A stretch of 47,446 nucleotides of DNA, taken from Klebsiella sp. BIGb0407 (GTDB lineage Bacteria > Pseudomonadota > Gammaproteobacteria > Enterobacterales > Enterobacteriaceae). Numbering within the stretch: position 1 is the first letter of the stretch; each line of letters starts with the position of its first letter. The stretch is from assembly GCF_024807845.1 (NCBI RefSeq), contig NZ_JANUEQ010000014.1, forward strand, positions 1-47,446, written 5' to 3'. A program made the translations under genes and the position numbers. Under the pieces are notes generated by a model. That model was not told where the DNA came from. It saw only the letters and a list, made by a program, of their open reading frames with translations, and ran no database searches. Shown here piece by piece: positions 29,394 through 36,374 of this stretch.

Positions 29394-29476
29394 AAAATCA
29401 CTCAATGAAAGTCAGGAGGGAAGAAAGTCAGCATGGTAGTATAGCGAGCGTAATCCACATGACTCAAGGTAACATC

Positions 29477-29758
29477 ATGGCAAAAACTGCTGCAGCACTA
29501 CATATCCTTGTTAAAGAAGAGAAACTTGCTCAAGAGATCCTCGCCCAGCTACAAAATGGCGGCGATTTTGAAAAGCTGGCGAAAAAACACTCTACCTGTC
29601 CTTCAGGGAAAAAAGGCGGCCATTTAGGTGAGTTCCGTCAGGGGCAGATGGTACCGGCATTTGATAAAGTGGTCTTCTCTTGCCCGTTGCTTGAACCTTA
29701 TGGTCCACTGCACACGCAATTTGGTTACCATATTATTAAAGTGTTATACCGTAATTAA
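29477..29758 (+). CDS. ppiC: Peptidyl-prolyl isomerase C (parvulin)
   Basis: 93 residues, single parvulin domain, same length as E. coli PpiC. Starts [18 protein letters not shown] and ends [36 protein letters not shown] is the conserved active-site region. Cytosolic; no signal peptide. The frame stays open 24 codons upstream, but conservation and a GGTAAC ribosome-binding site support the start at 29477. In E. coli ilvC is next to ppiC; here a 5-kb insertion follows. Confidence 0.96.
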
Positions 29759-29791
29759 TAGAACTACTGAAATAGCTCGATTAATTTGACG

Positions 29792-29850
29792 GGCATAGTA
29801 TTTTAAAATCTACTGTTGATACAATAAATCCATTAGATAAATACTATGCC
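29792..29850. repeat. 12-bp perfect inverted repeat at the left edge of the accessory cluster
   Basis: GGCATAGTATTT (29792-29803) and AAATACTATGCC (29839-29850) are perfect inverted repeats 35 bases apart. A second small palindrome, ATGCTATATTTATAGCAT, lies just beyond (29858-29875). They sit between the ppiC stop and the end of the GNAT gene. They could be a weak bidirectional terminator, a regulatory hairpin, or the ends of a tiny mobile element; nothing seen decides. Confidence 0.55.
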
Positions 29851-29919
29851 TGAACATATGCTATATTTATAGCATCAGTCTATTATACTTACTTCAGATA
29901 AAAAAACTTCATACAATAT

Positions 29920-30375
29920 TTACTTACTGAGCCAGGAATTTATTTCCATCGACTGCAGTATTTCATAAGGTAAAATCATACCCGCACCTAACTGAGATGT
30001 CGGTCGTTTAATAAAACCCAAATTAGTATAAAAACCTTCACGATTCTTTGCAGACATACAATAAATATCTGCCTTTTCATTAGCATTATTTTTAATATAG
30101 TTAAGTAATCTATACATTATTTTCTTACCGATACCGAAACGCCCCTGATACTCAGGCAATACCATAACATCCTGAATATAAAAAGCTAATGCAGCATCAC
30201 CAATAACTCGTCCACTACCAATCGCAGAACCATGACAATAAGCAGAGCAAATATATAATGAGTTATCAATGGCCTTATGAGAGGATATCTCATCAGGTAC
30301 CGACCAGCCAACTGACTGTCTTAGGTCATTGTATTCTCTGGGAGATAAATTATTATCATAGTATTCAATTTTCAT
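29920..30375 (-). CDS. GNAT-family N-acetyltransferase of the accessory cluster
   Basis: 151 residues from ATG 30375, two bases after the TAG of the PLP-enzyme gene (30379-30377), so translation is coupled. The acetyl-CoA signature is YQGRFGIGKKIM (about 76-87), preceded by the strand ALAFYIQDVMVLPEY, and YTNLGF (116-121) is the usual motif-B region. The substrate is unknown. Context suggests it acetylates the amine released by the PLP enzyme, or protects the host from the product; both are inference. AT-rich relative to the flanking genes. Confidence 0.85.
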   Translation of the reverse strand: MKIEYYDNNLSPREYNDLRQSVGWSVPDEISSHKAIDNSLYICSAYCHGSAIGSGRVIGDAALAFYIQDVMVLPEYQGRFGIGKKIMYRLLNYIKNNANEKADIYCMSAKNREGFYTNLGFIKRPTSQLGAGMILPYEILQSMEINSWLSK

Positions 30376-30376
30376 A

Positions 30377-31627
30377 CTATGATTTCTCTTCACAAAGTAA
30401 CACATCTCGGTAATCTAAAAATGCCTGGATGACTTTATTAATATGTGATGATTCATGTATTGCAGTCACCGTCATTCGGATACATTCATGCCCTCTTGGC
30501 ATTGTGGGATAGGGACAAGACGTCACATACAGACCATACTTTTTATATAATATCTTTGAGAAATCAACTAACATTTCTGTATTGGGAATGCGAACAGAGA
30601 CAATAGGAAATCCATTATTATTATACGTTTCAAATCCTACGTTCTCCAGTCCAGTAATAAGCTCATTCGTCAGTTTGTGAACATGATTTTTGATAATATC
30701 ACCTTCTTTTTCCAGTATATCCAAACCCGCATTTAAGACACCAAATGCAAATGGGATAGGCTGCTGAGAATAGTCAAGTGGCCTGGAGAAAGCGAGAAGC
30801 GTCCGCTTCATTTCACGCGAAACACCGGCAAAAGCCATGGCGGCACCCATATTTTTTGCTGTGCCAGCAATATAAAAAATGTTCTCATATGAGAGATCAA
30901 GATGTTTAACAATCCCCGCACCATTACCGTATGGGTTATGACTTGATGAACCAACCATGCCGAAACCATGTGCATCATCAATAAAAAGAATCGCATTATA
31001 TTTAACGGCTAAAGACTGGAGTTCCGCAAGACAGAGATAATGCCCGGTAATACTATAAACACCATCGAGACAAATCAACTTATGTCGTGCATTTTGATAT
31101 TTCTTTAGGATATCTTCGAGTTGATTTAAATCATTCTGTTCATAGCTCTGTAGAATGGCTCCTTTATCGCGAGCTAATTGTGCACCATGAAACATAATGG
31201 CATGTGCAGATTTATCCATAATAACAAGATCATTGTGTTCAATCAAAGCAGGAATTATTCCAATACATCCAAGAAATGTATTAGTTGTAATCAGTGCATC
31301 CTCGGCACCAATAACATCAGCCAGTCGTTCTTCGAGTTCACGACAAATTTGATAATGTCCCGTCAACCTTGCTCTACCGGTATGTAAGCCATAATCCATA
31401 GTGGCTTTAATAGCCTGCGGCAAAAGATCTTCCTGGCGTTTATCAAAACCAAGATAGTTTCCTGATGCAAAGTCAATAATTTCATTACCATTAATATCTA
31501 AAAAAACTCTATTTTTTGATTTCGAAATACTGACATCATACTGATCGCTTTCATTAAGCAATCGATATAAGTCCTTACGAATGCCAGACTGAATATTACT
31601 GCCCATTTGATTAAGAACTGAATACAT
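30377..31627 (-). CDS. Alpha-oxoamine synthase family PLP enzyme (AONS/KBL/CqsA-like)
   Basis: 416 residues from ATG 31627, which has GAGGT eight bases upstream; an earlier ATG at 31642 has no ribosome-binding site. Fold-type I PLP enzyme: GRARLTGHYQICRELEERLA (about 84-103), His142 in SAHAI (stacks on PLP), LDGVYSITGHY (187-197), Asp217/Asp218-Ala-His (PLP nitrogen contact) and Lys258 in AGTAKNMG. This family condenses an amino acid with an acyl-CoA or acyl-carrier thioester with loss of CO2. The lysine context (GTAKNMG) differs from BioF (TLGKAxG), so it is not simply biotin synthesis. Third gene of the cluster. Substrates unknown. Confidence 0.85.
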   Translation of the reverse strand: MYSVLNQMGSNIQSGIRKDLYRLLNESDQYDVSISKSKNRVFLDINGNEIIDFASGNYLGFDKRQEDLLPQAIKATMDYGLHTGRARLTGHYQICRELEERLADVIGAEDALITTNTFLGCIGIIPALIEHNDLVIMDKSAHAIMFHGAQLARDKGAILQSYEQNDLNQLEDILKKYQNARHKLICLDGVYSITGHYLCLAELQSLAVKYNAILFIDDAHGFGMVGSSSHNPYGNGAGIVKHLDLSYENIFYIAGTAKNMGAAMAFAGVSREMKRTLLAFSRPLDYSQQPIPFAFGVLNAGLDILEKEGDIIKNHVHKLTNELITGLENVGFETYNNNGFPIVSVRIPNTEMLVDFSKILYKKYGLYVTSCPYPTMPRGHECIRMTVTAIHESSHINKVIQAFLDYRDVLLCEEKS

Positions 31628-31670
31628 ATTTAATGACCTCAATTTTGTGAATCATGATATATAAAAAAAT

Positions 31671-33275
31671 CTATTTAATTTTCTGTAGAAATGTACGATC
31701 GATTTTACCTGAAGATGTTTTTGGTAGTTCTGTATGGAAAATAAATTGATGGGGTATTTTAAATGACTGGAGATGAGTATTAAGTATTTCTTTAGCTTCC
31801 GTTAAGTCAAAATGGGCACCGTCATTTAAAGAGTAGTGACATATAATGATGTTGTGCTCTTGCTCTTTTTTTACCACAATACAGGACTCATGGAGAAAAG
31901 GGATTTTCGCTGTTACCTCTTCGATTTCACCAAGCTCAATACGATAGCCATTAACTTTATAGATATGATCACGTCTGCCTTTATAGTGAAGCACTCCCTG
32001 CGCATCGCGAAAAGCGAAATCACCTGTGCGCCAAAAAAGGGCCGGATAAGGATGAAATGGACTTTTAACAAGACACCTGGCTGTCAATTCAGGTTGATTC
32101 AAATATCCTAATGTTACTGTTCCTCCGCGACACCAAATCTCACCTGTCTGATCGGGTTTACAAATCTCTTGCCCGTTATCCGCAACAACAATAATCTCCG
32201 TATCATCGACGACGTTACCTAAGGGAATACTATTACTCGCTAAATCATTCTGATTTACCCAGTGATAAGTAATAATATTTGTCTCTGTTGGTCCATATAT
32301 ATTGGCAATTTTTATTGTAGGAGCCAAAGTGGTAAGTTTTTTTAATTTTTCTACTGGAAATGGCTCACCTGCATACATAATTGTACGAAGACTATTTTCA
32401 TTAATAAATAAATTACCTTTTGCCATTAATGTCATCAAAGTTGATGGTGTAGTATATATAACAGTCGCTCGTTCACTCTCAAGTAACTTGACATAATCCT
32501 TATGCTTATCATTTTTTAATCTACCCAGGTCCCAGTCAAAACATATCAGTGTGGCACCAGCGCTAAGAGTATTAAATATATCAAAAACCGATAAATCAAA
32601 TTTGAATGGAGCTCTTGAAATAACACGGTCTTGCGTTGTAATTTGAAATTCTTTTTGCATCCAGCGAACAAATGTCAGCGCATTTCTGTGACTGAGCATA
32701 ATACCTTTTGGTCTGCCTGTAGAGCCAGAAGTATGCAGGACATAGGCCAGACTGTCAGATGGCTGATTAATTATTTCCAGACTGTCAGGATCATATGGAA
32801 TGTCCTCCTGGCTACATATAAGATCGCCTCGATCTAATGAATATATTATTGGGGTATTATCATCGCCAAGAGTAATAATATTCTTCAGCTGACTGCCGGT
32901 TAATACATCGAAATAATTTTCCAGTATAAACTTGTCGGTAATCAATACAGTTATATCTGTCTCTTTCAGCATATTCTCTAACTGAAGTTCTGAGTAAAGT
33001 GTATCAATTGGTACGTAAGCCTTACCCGCTTTAAGAATACCAAATAAAGCAGCAATACTGTCAGGATTAACATTCGCTAAAATACCAATTAATGTTTGCT
33101 CATTTTCATTGCCGGATGTGACTTTTTTAATCGCACCGCAAAATGCATTTGCTTTATTATTAAGTTCTCTATAGGTAATAATTCCTCGCCCCTCAAAAAT
33201 AATGGCTGGTGCTGAGGGTTGCTTTAAAACATTTTGATGAAAATTATGGTGCAATAAGTATTCCATTGTATACAT
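31671..33275 (-). CDS. Stand-alone amino-acid adenylating enzyme (NRPS A-domain type)
   Basis: 534 residues, one complete adenylation domain and nothing else. Core motifs: A2 LKAGKAYVPID (81-91), A3 HTSGSTGRPKG (181-191), A4 FDLSVFD (226-232), A5 NIYGPTETN (325-333), A7 WRTGDF (415-420), A8 GRRDHIYKVNGYRIELGEIE (433-452) and the catalytic A10 lysine, Lys524 in SSGKIDR. The Asp of A4 (227) points to an alpha-amino acid. By-eye mapping of the specificity pocket gives roughly D-L-F-Y-M-A-I-I-I-K, close to stand-alone prolyl-AMP ligases; this needs a real alignment. The protein ends just after A10, so no carrier domain is fused. 12 bases follow the methyltransferase-like gene. Confidence 0.88.
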   Translation of the reverse strand: MYTMEYLLHHNFHQNVLKQPSAPAIIFEGRGIITYRELNNKANAFCGAIKKVTSGNENEQTLIGILANVNPDSIAALFGILKAGKAYVPIDTLYSELQLENMLKETDITVLITDKFILENYFDVLTGSQLKNIITLGDDNTPIIYSLDRGDLICSQEDIPYDPDSLEIINQPSDSLAYVLHTSGSTGRPKGIMLSHRNALTFVRWMQKEFQITTQDRVISRAPFKFDLSVFDIFNTLSAGATLICFDWDLGRLKNDKHKDYVKLLESERATVIYTTPSTLMTLMAKGNLFINENSLRTIMYAGEPFPVEKLKKLTTLAPTIKIANIYGPTETNIITYHWVNQNDLASNSIPLGNVVDDTEIIVVADNGQEICKPDQTGEIWCRGGTVTLGYLNQPELTARCLVKSPFHPYPALFWRTGDFAFRDAQGVLHYKGRRDHIYKVNGYRIELGEIEEVTAKIPFLHESCIVVKKEQEHNIIICHYSLNDGAHFDLTEAKEILNTHLQSFKIPHQFIFHTELPKTSSGKIDRTFLQKIK

Positions 33276-33287
33276 TGGCCTTTTATA

Positions 33288-33866
33288 TCAAACATATGCT
33301 ACTTCAAATAGGTTTGGCGAGTGATAGAAATTATTCATTGATTTAAAAGATATACCTATATCATTTAATGAGTGTGATGCTTTAGCAGTCTCTAATACAG
33401 TTTGATACTGAATTGATTTATCATCAAAGGTTGAATAATATTTATTTCTGGCATCAATATCTGATTTTTCTTTACCCCATAAAGAGTTAATTATTATGTC
33501 ACCATCAATAAAACAATGCGTTATTGATTCAATATTAATATGGCTTAATACATTAAACCAGAAGATAAAAATACTCTTATCTTTATTGATTGCATGTCGT
33601 TGTTTGGCATATGACTCAAATGACATCATGAGGATGTTTGGCATGCTCTTATTATTAACATAAGGATCAATCCCTATATAATTAAAACAGTGTTTTTTGA
33701 TACTTTCATAATACATACCATCATAGCACCCTACTACTATGACATTCATAGCCTCTTTAATCTCAGAGAGAGTGCTCTCTATAAATCTCAGTTCATTTTT
33801 CAGAAATAAAGATGCAGCCTTCTTGCTTTTATCTTTAAGCATATTCATATAAATGCTTTTTGTCAT
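33288..33866 (-). CDS. Short methyltransferase-like protein, first gene of the accessory cluster
   Basis: 192 residues, low GC. MNVIVVGCYDGMYYESI resembles SAM-binding motif I, YIGIDPY is the following acidic strand, and IFIFWFNVLSHIN looks like motif II, so a class I Rossmann methyltransferase fold is likely. Motif I is G-x-Y-D-G rather than G-x-G-x-G, so activity is uncertain. The family was not recognised beyond this. It could modify the cluster's product or be a divergent partner protein. It has only a weak ribosome-binding site. Confidence 0.6.
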   Translation of the reverse strand: MTKSIYMNMLKDKSKKAASLFLKNELRFIESTLSEIKEAMNVIVVGCYDGMYYESIKKHCFNYIGIDPYVNNKSMPNILMMSFESYAKQRHAINKDKSIFIFWFNVLSHINIESITHCFIDGDIIINSLWGKEKSDIDARNKYYSTFDDKSIQYQTVLETAKASHSLNDIGISFKSMNNFYHSPNLFEVAYV

Positions 33867-34165
33867 ATTTTAAAACCCATCTGGAATAGTTATAAAGTTA
33901 TGTTTCCAAAACCTCTAAATGCCACTCCTGAATAATGAACGATACATAGAAATATTTCCTGCAAAAAACAATTCAAATAAAAAATTAATATTTTCAGAAT
34001 AATATTAATATCACGATTATTCAGGCCCTCATCAGAGCTCTATATCAATGAGTTTTTGAATAAATGAAAAGTGACTGAGCCACGAAATGGGGCTGCTGTA
34101 GCCGGAGGAAATGAGCCAAGTTCACTGAATTCTCCTCGGTATGAGGATTAAATGTATCAATATGT
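33867..34165. other. AT-rich upstream region of the accessory cluster
   Basis: About 300 bases without a convincing ORF. It must include the cluster promoter on the minus strand. No good -35/-10 pair, operator or carrier-protein gene was found; in particular there is no DSL phosphopantetheine motif on the minus strand. Confidence 0.5.
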
Positions 34166-34810
34166 AGTGGGCAACTAAAACTGGCCACCGTTTTAGAGTT
34201 TTTTCAGTATAGGTTTTCCGATTCGTTTGGTGATAAACAATCGTTATATTCCTGTAGTCCGGGCGTACTGTAATATCCGACGATATAAGTCTTTTATTGC
34301 CAGGATAGCATCACTGAAGCTTGTTTAACCACGTTTACCTGTCCAGATATATATCACGCCGCCGCACCACACCTGATTAGGCTCTGTCATAGCAAGCTGC
34401 GATCAAGATTATTTGGTGTAGTGATGTGTTCATGGGTACCACGCTAGTATCGATGTGTGGGCTGCTAACAACTGACCGGCAAGGTTTTTCCAGTATTTGT
34501 AACTGCTACGATGAACCCTGAACACGTGGCAGAGTGTGGCCACAGGATAATACGCTCTGGGCTTCCAGATTATCGAGAGCTGTTCAAGGAGTCTGACATT
34601 AAAATCGTGGTGGGTTTTTAATATTTATCTATTATTTCAATAAGTTGAAATTTATTCTCAAACTCACGCATTTAAATTTGCTCTGGAGAAATGAGAGAGA
34701 CTTTAGGTGTTTTCCCTGCCGTTGCCGTTCATCACGCAACTGTTTCACCCATCGTGTCATGGTGGAAAGGATGACATCATCGTACTGGCTGCTTCTGCCG
34801 CAGTGTCGTT
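34166..34810 (-). pseudogene. Decayed IS3-family insertion sequence (OrfA and OrfB remnants)
   Basis: Minus strand. OrfA-like pieces: STMTRWVKQLRDERQ (about 34770-34720), then after a scrambled stretch MSDSLNSSR and stop (34600-34571), the usual OrfA C-terminus. OrfB-like pieces: [11 protein letters not shown] and [11 protein letters not shown] (about 34550-34480), EPNQVWCGGVIYIWTGKR (about 34390-34330), SFSDAILAIKD (about 34320-34290) and LSPNESENLY-stop-KNSKTVASFS (about 34230-34170). Several frameshifts, stops and deletions are present. The first DDE aspartate (normally CGDVTYI) is Gly, so it is inactive. The transposase order A then B is kept. Confidence 0.85.
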
Positions 34811-34898: not shown

Positions 34899-36374
34899 TT
34901 ACTCTGCTACTGCAATACGTTTCATATCGGTCATGTAGCCACGCAGTTTTTTACCGACTTTTTCGATTTCATGGCTGCGAATCGCTTCGTTCACATCACG
35001 CAGTTGCGCGTTATCAACGGCAGTTTCAGTACCCGCTTTACCTAAGTCACCCGCTTGCAGCGTGGTCATGAACTCTTTCAGCAGTGGTACCGCTGCGTAA
35101 GAGAACAGGTAGTTACCGTATTCAGCAGTATCAGAGATAACTACGTTCATTTCATACAGACGCTTACGCGCGATGGTGTTAGCAATCAGTGGCAGCTCGT
35201 GCAGTGATTCATAGTAAGCAGATTCTTCGATGATACCTGCATCAACCATGGTTTCGAATGCCAGCTCAACGCCTGCTTTAACCATGGCAATCATCACAAC
35301 GCCCTGATCAAAGTAAGCTTGCTCAGCGATTTTACCTTCGAACTGTGGTGCAGTTTCGAACGCGGTTTTACCGGTCTCTTCACGCCAGGTCAGCAGGTTC
35401 TTATCGTCATTTGCCCAGTCAGCCATCATTCCTGAAGAGAATTCACCGGAGATAATGTCATCCATGTGTTTCTGGAACAGTGGAGCCATGATGGTTTTCA
35501 GTTGCTCAGACAGCGCATAAGCACGGATTTTCGCTGGATTAGACAGACGATCCATCATCAGCGTGATACCGCCTTGTTTCAGTGCTTCGGTAATGGTTTC
35601 CCAGCCGAACTGAATCAGTTTTTCTGCATAAGCTGCGTCAGTACCTTCAGAAACTAACTTGTCGAAGCACAGCAGAGAACCCGCCTGCAGCATACCGCAC
35701 AGGATAGTTTGCTCACCCATCAGGTCAGACTTAACTTCGGCAACGAAAGAAGATTCCAGAACACCAGCGCGGTGACCACCGGTTGCAGCAGCCCAGGCTT
35801 TAGCAATCGCCATACCTTCGCCTTTCGGGTCATTTTCCGGGTGAACAGCAATCAGCGTTGGAACACCGAAACCACGTTTGTATTCTTCACGAACTTCAGT
35901 ACCCGGACATTTAGGCGCAACCATCACTACAGTGATGTCTTTACGAATCTGCTCACCCACTTCAATCACGTTAAAGCCATGAGAGTAGCCCAGGGTAGCG
36001 CCCTCTTTCATCAGCGGCTGTACAGCCTGAACAACAACTGAGTGCTGTTTGTCTGGAGTCAGGTTAACAACCAAGTCCGCCTGCGGGATCAGTTCTTCAT
36101 AAGTACCAACGGTGAAACCGTTTTCGGTCGCTTTACGCCATGATGCACGTTTCTCAGCAATCGCTTCAGCACGCAGGGTGTAAGAAACATCCAGGCCAGA
36201 GTCGCGCATATTCAGACCCTGGTTAAGGCCCTGTGCTCCACAGCCGACAATAACTACTTTTTTGCCTTTGAGGTAGTTGGCTTCATCAGCGAATTCGTCA
36301 CGCCCCATAAAGCGACATTTACCCAACTGCGCTAACTGCTGACGCAGGTTCAAAGTGTTGAAATAATTAGCCAT
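34899..36374 (-). CDS. ilvC: Ketol-acid reductoisomerase (NADP), class II
   Basis: 491 residues, the E. coli long (class II) form with a duplicated C-terminal helical domain. Converts acetolactate or acetohydroxybutyrate to the dihydroxy acids in valine/isoleucine synthesis. The NADPH Rossmann motif is [20 protein letters not shown] (from about 34), and [22 protein letters not shown] is conserved. Divergent from its activator ilvY, with an operator between them. E. coli has ppiC directly beyond; here the IS remnant and cluster intervene. Confidence 0.98.

Follow-up and report, generated by a model that had tools for sequence, protein, structure and literature searches.

A four-gene set between ppiC and ilvC in Klebsiella sp. 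BIGb0407 as a candidate pathway from S-adenosylmethionine to an azetidinyl aminoketone

The four-gene locus

The window analysed here is a stretch of 47,446 nucleotides from Klebsiella sp. BIGb0407 (contig NZ_JANUEQ010000014.1, positions 1 to 47,446) that carries, between ppiC and ilvC, four open reading frames (ORFs) on the minus strand. They code, in this order, for what is most likely a divergent homologue of the azetidine-2-carboxylic acid (AZE) synthases (gene 1), a stand-alone amino-acid adenylating enzyme (A), a pyridoxal-phosphate (PLP) enzyme of the alpha-oxoamine-synthase family (AOS), and a GNAT-family acetyltransferase. Sequence comparisons give about an even chance that they form a horizontally moved pathway leading from a cyclic amino acid derived from S-adenosylmethionine (SAM) to an azetidinyl aminoketone. 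All four genes are open and intact, with intergenic gaps of 12, 43, and 1 bases, exactly as given in the first-pass annotation of this DNA, and the AT-richness that it reported is evident from the GC content of 29-38%, against 45-49% in ppiC, rep, and ilvC. Position 29759 is the first base past ppiC, and the gene set itself begins at 29920 (Table 1). For A, orthologues indicate a likely start at 33266 (531 aa), and the listed AOS ORF begins farther upstream, at a TTG.

Table 1. Coordinates of the four genes, the flanking genes, and other elements of the locus
Feature	Position	Strand	Basis or remark
Gene 1, most likely a divergent AZE-synthase homologue, predicted SAM-cyclising enzyme	33288..33866	-	192 aa; profile searches
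Gene 2 (A), stand-alone amino-acid adenylating enzyme, code DLFYMAIIIK	31671..33275	-	534 aa as listed
Gene 3 (AOS), alpha-oxoamine-synthase-family PLP enzyme	30377..31627	-	416 aa
Gene 4, GNAT-family acetyltransferase	29920..30375	-	151 aa; Pfam
ppiC, left flank of the insertion	29405..29758	+	name from first reading and position; orthologue aligned
ilvC, right flank	34899..36374	-	name from first reading; orthologues found and aligned
IS3-family transposase fragment, 88% identical to annotated gene	34162..34287		remnant within the inserted segment
Second IS3-family transposase fragment, 81% identical	34348..34477		
Perfect 12-bp inverted repeat	29792..29850 (arms 29792-29803, 29839-29850)		just 3' of the GNAT gene

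Distribution, insertion site, and conservation

The four-gene set is accessory cargo, as the first-pass annotation had proposed: among genomes of the same genus as the window, it is absent from G003, where only a 135-bp spacer separates ppiC and ilvC, and from G001, where 1134 bp of other sequence lie in between. By eye, the G001 interval (L094) encodes an Rrf2-like regulator together with a small membrane protein, a different small cargo, so this junction is possibly a minor hot spot for insertions. At the same site, Cedecea G002 (same genus) carries gene 1-A-AOS-GNAT in this order, with an in-frame stop in A. Two further genomes carry the genes rearranged and at other sites, in the order AOS-GNAT-gene 1-A in Sodalis dw_96 and AOS-gene 1-A-GNAT in Vibrio pectenicida, and in G363, a second Sodalis-like genome, only AOS is whole, with gene 1, A, and GNAT damaged. 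Moreover, a sister set, whose AOS and A are 47% and 37% identical to those of the window, is flanked by glmS and a pstS-like gene in three of the six genomes of another genus (G117, G1120, and G1121) and has a different gene-1 protein (350 aa) and a GNAT of another Pfam family. The sister set (L090, L099, L100) stands directly behind glmS, the region known as the Tn7 attachment site, and in Vibrio pectenicida the set is preceded, at a distance of about 0.8 kb, by the end of a 2352-codon ORF (L004:135-7193).

AOS is rare. It was found at E <=1e-60 in two of the four same-genus genomes examined, the window's own included, and genome draws with limits of E 1e-80 or 1e-60 gave 5 of 392 genomes for the family (the window, G002, two Sodalis-like, and one of the sister type), 1 of 394 for the order, and 1 of 369 for the class, the window's own genome both times, together with 1 of 227 in the genus Vibrio and 2 of 6 in the Sodalis-like genus. 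When genome contigs were scanned with a pattern, 121 AOS relatives were confirmed and 79 loci kept; among these, three relatives are at least 69% identical (Cedecea, Sodalis dw_96, and Vibrio pectenicida), and the next stands at 30%. Phage or plasmid cargo was rejected, as the AOS relatives among the matches listed from viral contigs and plasmids are only distant ones. Specifically, no viral contig held a relative of the window AOS and a 7-row profile gave only three distant matches (26-27%), the plasmid search with the window AOS yielded matches of at most 31% identity among the best 20 of 670, and that with the sister gene 1 had no match. An anti-phage defence system was likewise dismissed: PADLOC matched none of the four window proteins at E 0.01 and gave one weak match (0.0044) among the four sister proteins.

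Eight sets were counted (the window, G002, the Sodalis-like dw_96 and G363, V. pectenicida, G117, G1120, and G1121), and AOS is open in all of them. A is open in five and broken in G002, G117, and G363, and GNAT is whole in five and damaged or lost in G363, G117, and G1121; in G117, A carries a stop and GNAT is frameshifted, and G1121 retains a GNAT remnant only. With an Embleya plasmid included, there are four interrupted copies of A, three of which owe this to one in-frame stop each. Between the window and G002, the ratios of non-synonymous to synonymous divergence (dN/dS) are 0.065 for gene 1, 0.125 for A, 0.067 for AOS, and 0.141 for GNAT, at a dS of 1.1-1.3 for A, AOS, and GNAT and of 3.5, near saturation, for gene 1. 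The window copy shows purifying selection, with AOS conserved best among the four. Relaxed selection, which the first-pass annotation had named among the findings that would refute its reading, is thus visible in part of the relatives, where A and GNAT are broken or lost, and not in the window copy. These ratios, and the occurrence of related sets in G002, both Sodalis-like genomes, and V. pectenicida, make the group of four more than a chance find, and the annotation's view of it as one unit is supported.

Gene 1 and the AZE synthases

Gene 1 had been called methyltransferase-like, and Methyltransf_23 indeed reaches 26.4 bits on it, just under the Pfam cut-off of 27. Profile searches nevertheless place the protein in the AZE-synthase, SAM-cyclising branch. 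The sister gene-1 protein matches, among PDB sequences, 8ryg (E 1.7e-26) and 8ryd (E 5.9e-16), which are the AZE synthases VioH and AzeJ, respectively; the signature proposed for these enzymes consists of three motifs, 17FY18, PFNxxGN, and RxxYYxxC (PMC11794875, in the sections covered here and below). All three are present in the sister proteins L099 and L100, as FY15, PFNCFGN138, and RMAYYAKC177 or RIAYYARC177. For the window protein, hmmsearch with a 7-member AzeJ/VioH-family profile against 1722 ORFs from the collected loci plus named sequences gave E 3.8e-6, and for gene 1 and its three orthologues together E 2.6e-6 to 5.6e-6 (22.4-23.5 bits). The best unrelated ORF stood at E 0.14, and among 2000 shuffles the highest score was 8.7 bits; the four window-type proteins and their copies in other loci ranked directly after the profile's own members. 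Of the class I methyltransferase-like ORFs, 11 were selected by motif; three are the sister proteins, and the other eight stood at E of at least 0.8, one of them being unreported. In line with this ranking, hhalign of window-type gene 1 gave 97.4% (P 1.4e-11) against the 7-member profile, 96% against a 5-member AzeJ-family profile, and 61% against the sister alignment alone.

At the residue level, window gene 1 retains GCYDG and the equivalents of Phe134, Arg172, Tyr175, and Tyr176, and those of Phe134, Tyr175, and Tyr176 are retained in all four window-type proteins; in AzeJ, F134L, Y175A, R172A, and R172K cause loss of function (PMC11794875). The structure model of gene 1 has a mean pLDDT of 72.9, and that of the sister protein was poor (pLDDT 40.9) and was left unused.

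Several observations weigh against the assignment. Single AZE-synthase sequences gave only 14-47% in hhalign, where the best ordinary methyltransferase-like decoy reached 1.4%, window gene 1 found no AZE synthase among PDB sequences either as a single sequence or as a 4-row profile, and the reverse search with the window-type profile reached AzeJ relatives only weakly (E 0.01-0.9), yet next after its own members. The signature itself is incomplete: the FY motif is missing, with a lone Tyr6 near the start; PFNxxGN reads WFNVLSH, in which Phe and the first Asn are retained; and RxxYYxxC reads RNKYYSTF, in which Arg and both Tyr are retained and Cys is gone. The equivalents of Pro133, Gly138, Asn139, and Cys179 are altered accordingly, the Arg172 equivalent and GxxxG each occur in only two of the four orthologues, and even the sister protein has Glu in place of AzeJ Asp85. 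Because the three motifs are incomplete, window gene 1 is not an AZE-synthase member by the published signature; still, it is most likely a divergent homologue of this family rather than a methyltransferase, and it may well work like an AZE synthase despite the missing signature.

In the family draw, the sister gene-1 profile, which fails to reach the window-type proteins, found AZE-synthase-like genes in 3 of 392 genomes, one of them with AOS alongside. By eye, one AZE-synthase-like gene lies beside radical-SAM-like, ATP-grasp-like, and transporter-like genes (L112:8887-13580), and another near an adenylation-domain sequence (L113:8656-9411).

The adenylating enzyme

The A protein passes the Pfam cut-offs for AMP-binding and AMP-binding_C and scores 308.6 bits with TIGR01733, narrowly under the cut-off of 317.4. 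Its specificity code was mapped by motifs, with the GrsA positions as reference, and contains the expected Asp and Lys. At the inner eight positions, all 5 window-type enzymes examined, that of Embleya among them, read LFYMAIII and all 3 sister enzymes LFYLAIIV, the overall identity between the types being 37%. As a control of the mapping, an enzyme from a Streptomyces clavuligerus plasmid gave LFYLALVC. This equals, at 8/8 positions, the stand-alone proline code L(L/F)YLALVC, the modular proline code being VQ(Y/F)IAHVV (PMC3874040, in the part covered). The sister type matches the stand-alone code at 5/8 positions. The window type does so at only 4/8 and shares 4/8 also with the predicted cysteine code DLFNLSLIWK (PMC11253843, in the part covered), and both figures count against a proline-like substrate; since the two codes share equally many positions with window A, the proline likeness is suggestive only. 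The code thus resembles, without matching, that of the stand-alone proline enzymes, and a proline-specific A domain is described to accept AZE (PMC11794875). A literature search with one code string gave no match. The alanine code DLFNNALTYK was considered and dropped in favour of the published proline code.

An Embleya plasmid carries a gene-1 homologue (E 3.3e-7) and, immediately after it, an A enzyme that is 43% identical to the window's, has the same code, and contains one in-frame stop. Among plasmid records, this Embleya enzyme is also the top match of the sister A, followed by three from S. clavuligerus, one of which was examined and has the exact proline code. One S. clavuligerus plasmid stretch (L115:3000-12000) brings together an oxoamine synthase, an acyl-CoA-dehydrogenase-like gene, a proline-type stand-alone A, and genes resembling, by eye, ornithine cyclodeaminase; it is possibly a pyrrolyl aminoketone cluster. 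The window genome holds one other A-like match at E 1e-15, in a 579-aa frame.

The oxoamine synthase, the acetyltransferase, and the acyl carrier

AOS passes the Pfam cut-off for Aminotran_1_2 and remains below those of the curated subfamily models, with 218.6 bits for bioF (cut-off 426.45), 201.7 for gly_Cac_T_rel, 194.3 for the Kbl type (cut-off 460), and 111.6 for the CqsA type (cut-off 428). The comparison with the CqsA autoinducer enzymes drawn in the first-pass annotation is therefore weak, the CqsA score being the lowest of the four. The catalytic residues are intact: K258 (PLP Lys), D217/H220 (DxxH), and R384 (C-terminal Arg) are invariant in 7/7 aligned proteins and align with the solved chains of ThAOS and Kbl. 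In ThAOS, Arg366 binds the substrate carboxylate (PMC11906848, in the part covered), and V79A widens the use of amino acids; Ala86 of the window enzyme aligns with this Val79 (wild-type 7poa and V79A 8s1y chains). Hence, AOS shares family and catalytic residues with BioF, Kbl, CqsA, and SPT, while it meets no curated subfamily cut-off and does not group with the rest of the sample. The tree, of 84 sequences, separates the two kinds of set together with L006 (Paractinoplanes) and L007 (Patescibacteria) as a 9-row group from the other 75 with full support; without these two, the window-type and sister sets join at only 93/45, and the tree tool marks long branches, L006 and L007 among them. These two were not counted as sets because tblastn found no A enzyme and no relative of gene 1 in their stretches.

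GNAT passes the Pfam cut-offs for Acetyltransf_10, _7, and _1. Its nearest solved chain is 1y7r (E 2.5e-20), and of its nearest solved relatives one is entered as a hypothetical protein and one only as GNAT-family. The window genome has three PP-binding matches, all on other contigs; by eye, one is AcpP-like, one lies among ketosynthase- and reductase-like genes, and one beside type-III-secretion-like genes.

Proposed pathway

The proposed pathway would start with gene 1, which, judging from homology and conserved catalytic residues, would cyclise SAM to AZE or a close relative and methylthioadenosine. As suggested by its binding-pocket code, A would then adenylate the carboxylate of AZE, a proline-like secondary amino acid, and AOS, in view of its family and intact catalytic residues, would condense this activated acyl group, with loss of CO2, with an ordinary alpha-amino acid bound to PLP as an aldimine, to give an azetidin-2-yl aminoketone; with alanine as the amino acid, the predicted ketone would be C6H12N2O and its acetylated form C8H14N2O2. 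Because AZE is a secondary amine, it would not be expected as the usual PLP aldimine partner and would thus have to be the acyl donor in the AOS reaction, which in turn would explain the adenylating enzyme in the set. The acyl group could be carried by coenzyme A (CoA) or by the ordinary AcpP, or could be used directly as the adenylate. Lastly, GNAT may acetylate either free AZE or the final product, and this could serve for tailoring or for self-protection; yeast Mpr1 is an AZE-detoxifying N-acetyltransferase. Self-protection would be a second possible role for GNAT, since N-acetyltransferases are proposed to detoxify AZE in azeJ-like clusters (PMC11794875). Of the scheme in the first-pass annotation (activation, condensation, and modification), the amino-acid adenylating enzyme beside an oxoamine synthase stands, and methylation loses its support because gene 1 belongs to the AZE-synthase branch.

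An AOS beside an AZE-type enzyme was found only in these eight sets, and several points speak against the pathway. The set contains no carrier protein among its ORFs of at least 60 aa, and the GNATs of the window-type and sister sets differ in their best Pfam families. Furthermore, no AOS accompanies the Embleya pair in the 21.6 kb examined, and the search found none near the other two AZE-synthase-like genes of the family draw, so that the link to AOS rests on the window-type and sister sets. A tentative and more specific proposal, which we consider somewhat improbable as it stands, is that of a carrier-free route to azetidin-2-yl aminoketones as a new class of small molecules, in which AOS would take an activated cyclic secondary amino acid (adenylate or CoA ester) supplied by a divergent SAM cyclase, all encoded in a mobile four-gene unit of Enterobacterales and Vibrio. 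If the proposed pathway is right, AZE chemistry would be joined to an oxoamine synthase without an assembly line, giving a compact four-gene source of azetidine ketones; gene 1 would represent a new SAM-cyclase branch overlooked by the published three-motif signature, and the set would be a test case for an adenylating enzyme that feeds an oxoamine synthase without a dedicated carrier protein.

Comparison with known systems

The literature searches, judged from their search results, retrieved no described pathway with this enzyme combination, in agreement with the first-pass annotation, which had recognised none. Prodigiosin-type pathways pair a proline-type A (PigI/RedM) with the AOS part of PigH/RedN, a kind of pair also present in the S. 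clavuligerus plasmid stretch; they differ from the window set in relying on a carrier protein, on a dehydrogenase, and on polyketide extension. The stand-alone L-proline enzymes PltF, RedM, CloN4, and CcbC (PMC3874040) are, like window A, free-standing, with Asp and Lys and a code starting L-F-Y; in the last three positions, window and sister A have Ile in place of both Leu and Val, and either Ile or Val in place of Cys, and the window set lacks the carrier protein. The AzeJ/azetidomonamide and VioH/vioprolide clusters share with the window set a SAM-cyclising class I fold, and they differ in that window gene 1 lacks the full signature and the window set has no non-ribosomal peptide synthetase. 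More generally, and as in the window set, azeJ-like genes are grouped with stand-alone A domains in clusters II and IV, N-acetyltransferases are frequent in clusters II-IV, and horizontal spread is proposed; the main text mentions oxononanoate, aminotransferase, and PLP 0 times each, and the sections covered name no oxoamine synthase (PMC11794875). In SxtA of the saxitoxin pathway, likened here by its description only, methyltransferase, GNAT, and oxoamine-synthase-type domains jointly make an aminoketone; unlike the window set, SxtA is a single protein with its own carrier domain and, in the description covered, no adenylating enzyme (PMC2679770).

Alternative explanations

Two alternatives retain a biosynthetic role for the set, and both are unlikely. 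In one, close to the first-pass reading, A and AOS would turn a common amino acid into an amino ketone, gene 1 would modify this as an ordinary SAM methyltransferase, and acetylation would follow. The near miss with Methyltransf_23, the incomplete AZE signature, and an A code that fits no substrate cleanly are all compatible with it, but the profiles place gene 1 with the AZE-synthase branch, ahead of the eight methyltransferase-like decoys, and in the sister set a full-signature AZE synthase occupies the same role. The other, about equally improbable, would separate the two halves of the set: AZE would be made and activated by genes 1 and 2 for one product, AOS would use an acyl-CoA of primary metabolism and an amino acid in the manner of Kbl or BioF for a separate or joined moiety, and GNAT would detoxify AZE. 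Such a split fits with AOS being nearest to the BioF/Kbl-type models and with the Embleya plasmid, where gene 1 and A occur without AOS in the stretch examined; it is at odds with the presence of AOS and A, whole or broken, together in 8/8 sets and with AOS being the best conserved gene.

That the locus is a decaying island without present function is very unlikely. The losses of A and of GNAT in three sets each, the state of G363, in which only AOS is whole, and the IS3 remnants upstream of the set would all be expected of such an island, but the four window genes are all open, with dN/dS of 0.065-0.14. The pathway to an azetidinyl aminoketone is thus preferred over these three explanations.

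Minor sequence elements

The two IS3 fragments lie in the 1 kb adjoining the set on the ilvC side, upstream of the genes, and a near search in E. coli matched 2 of 5426 genomes, both through these fragments. Promoter-like sites in the window show no excess (24 against a mean of 23.5 by chance), and Rfam gave 0 matches. The inverted repeat 3' of the GNAT gene is not among the terminator-like sites predicted in the window, and its arms enclose a loop of 35 bases.

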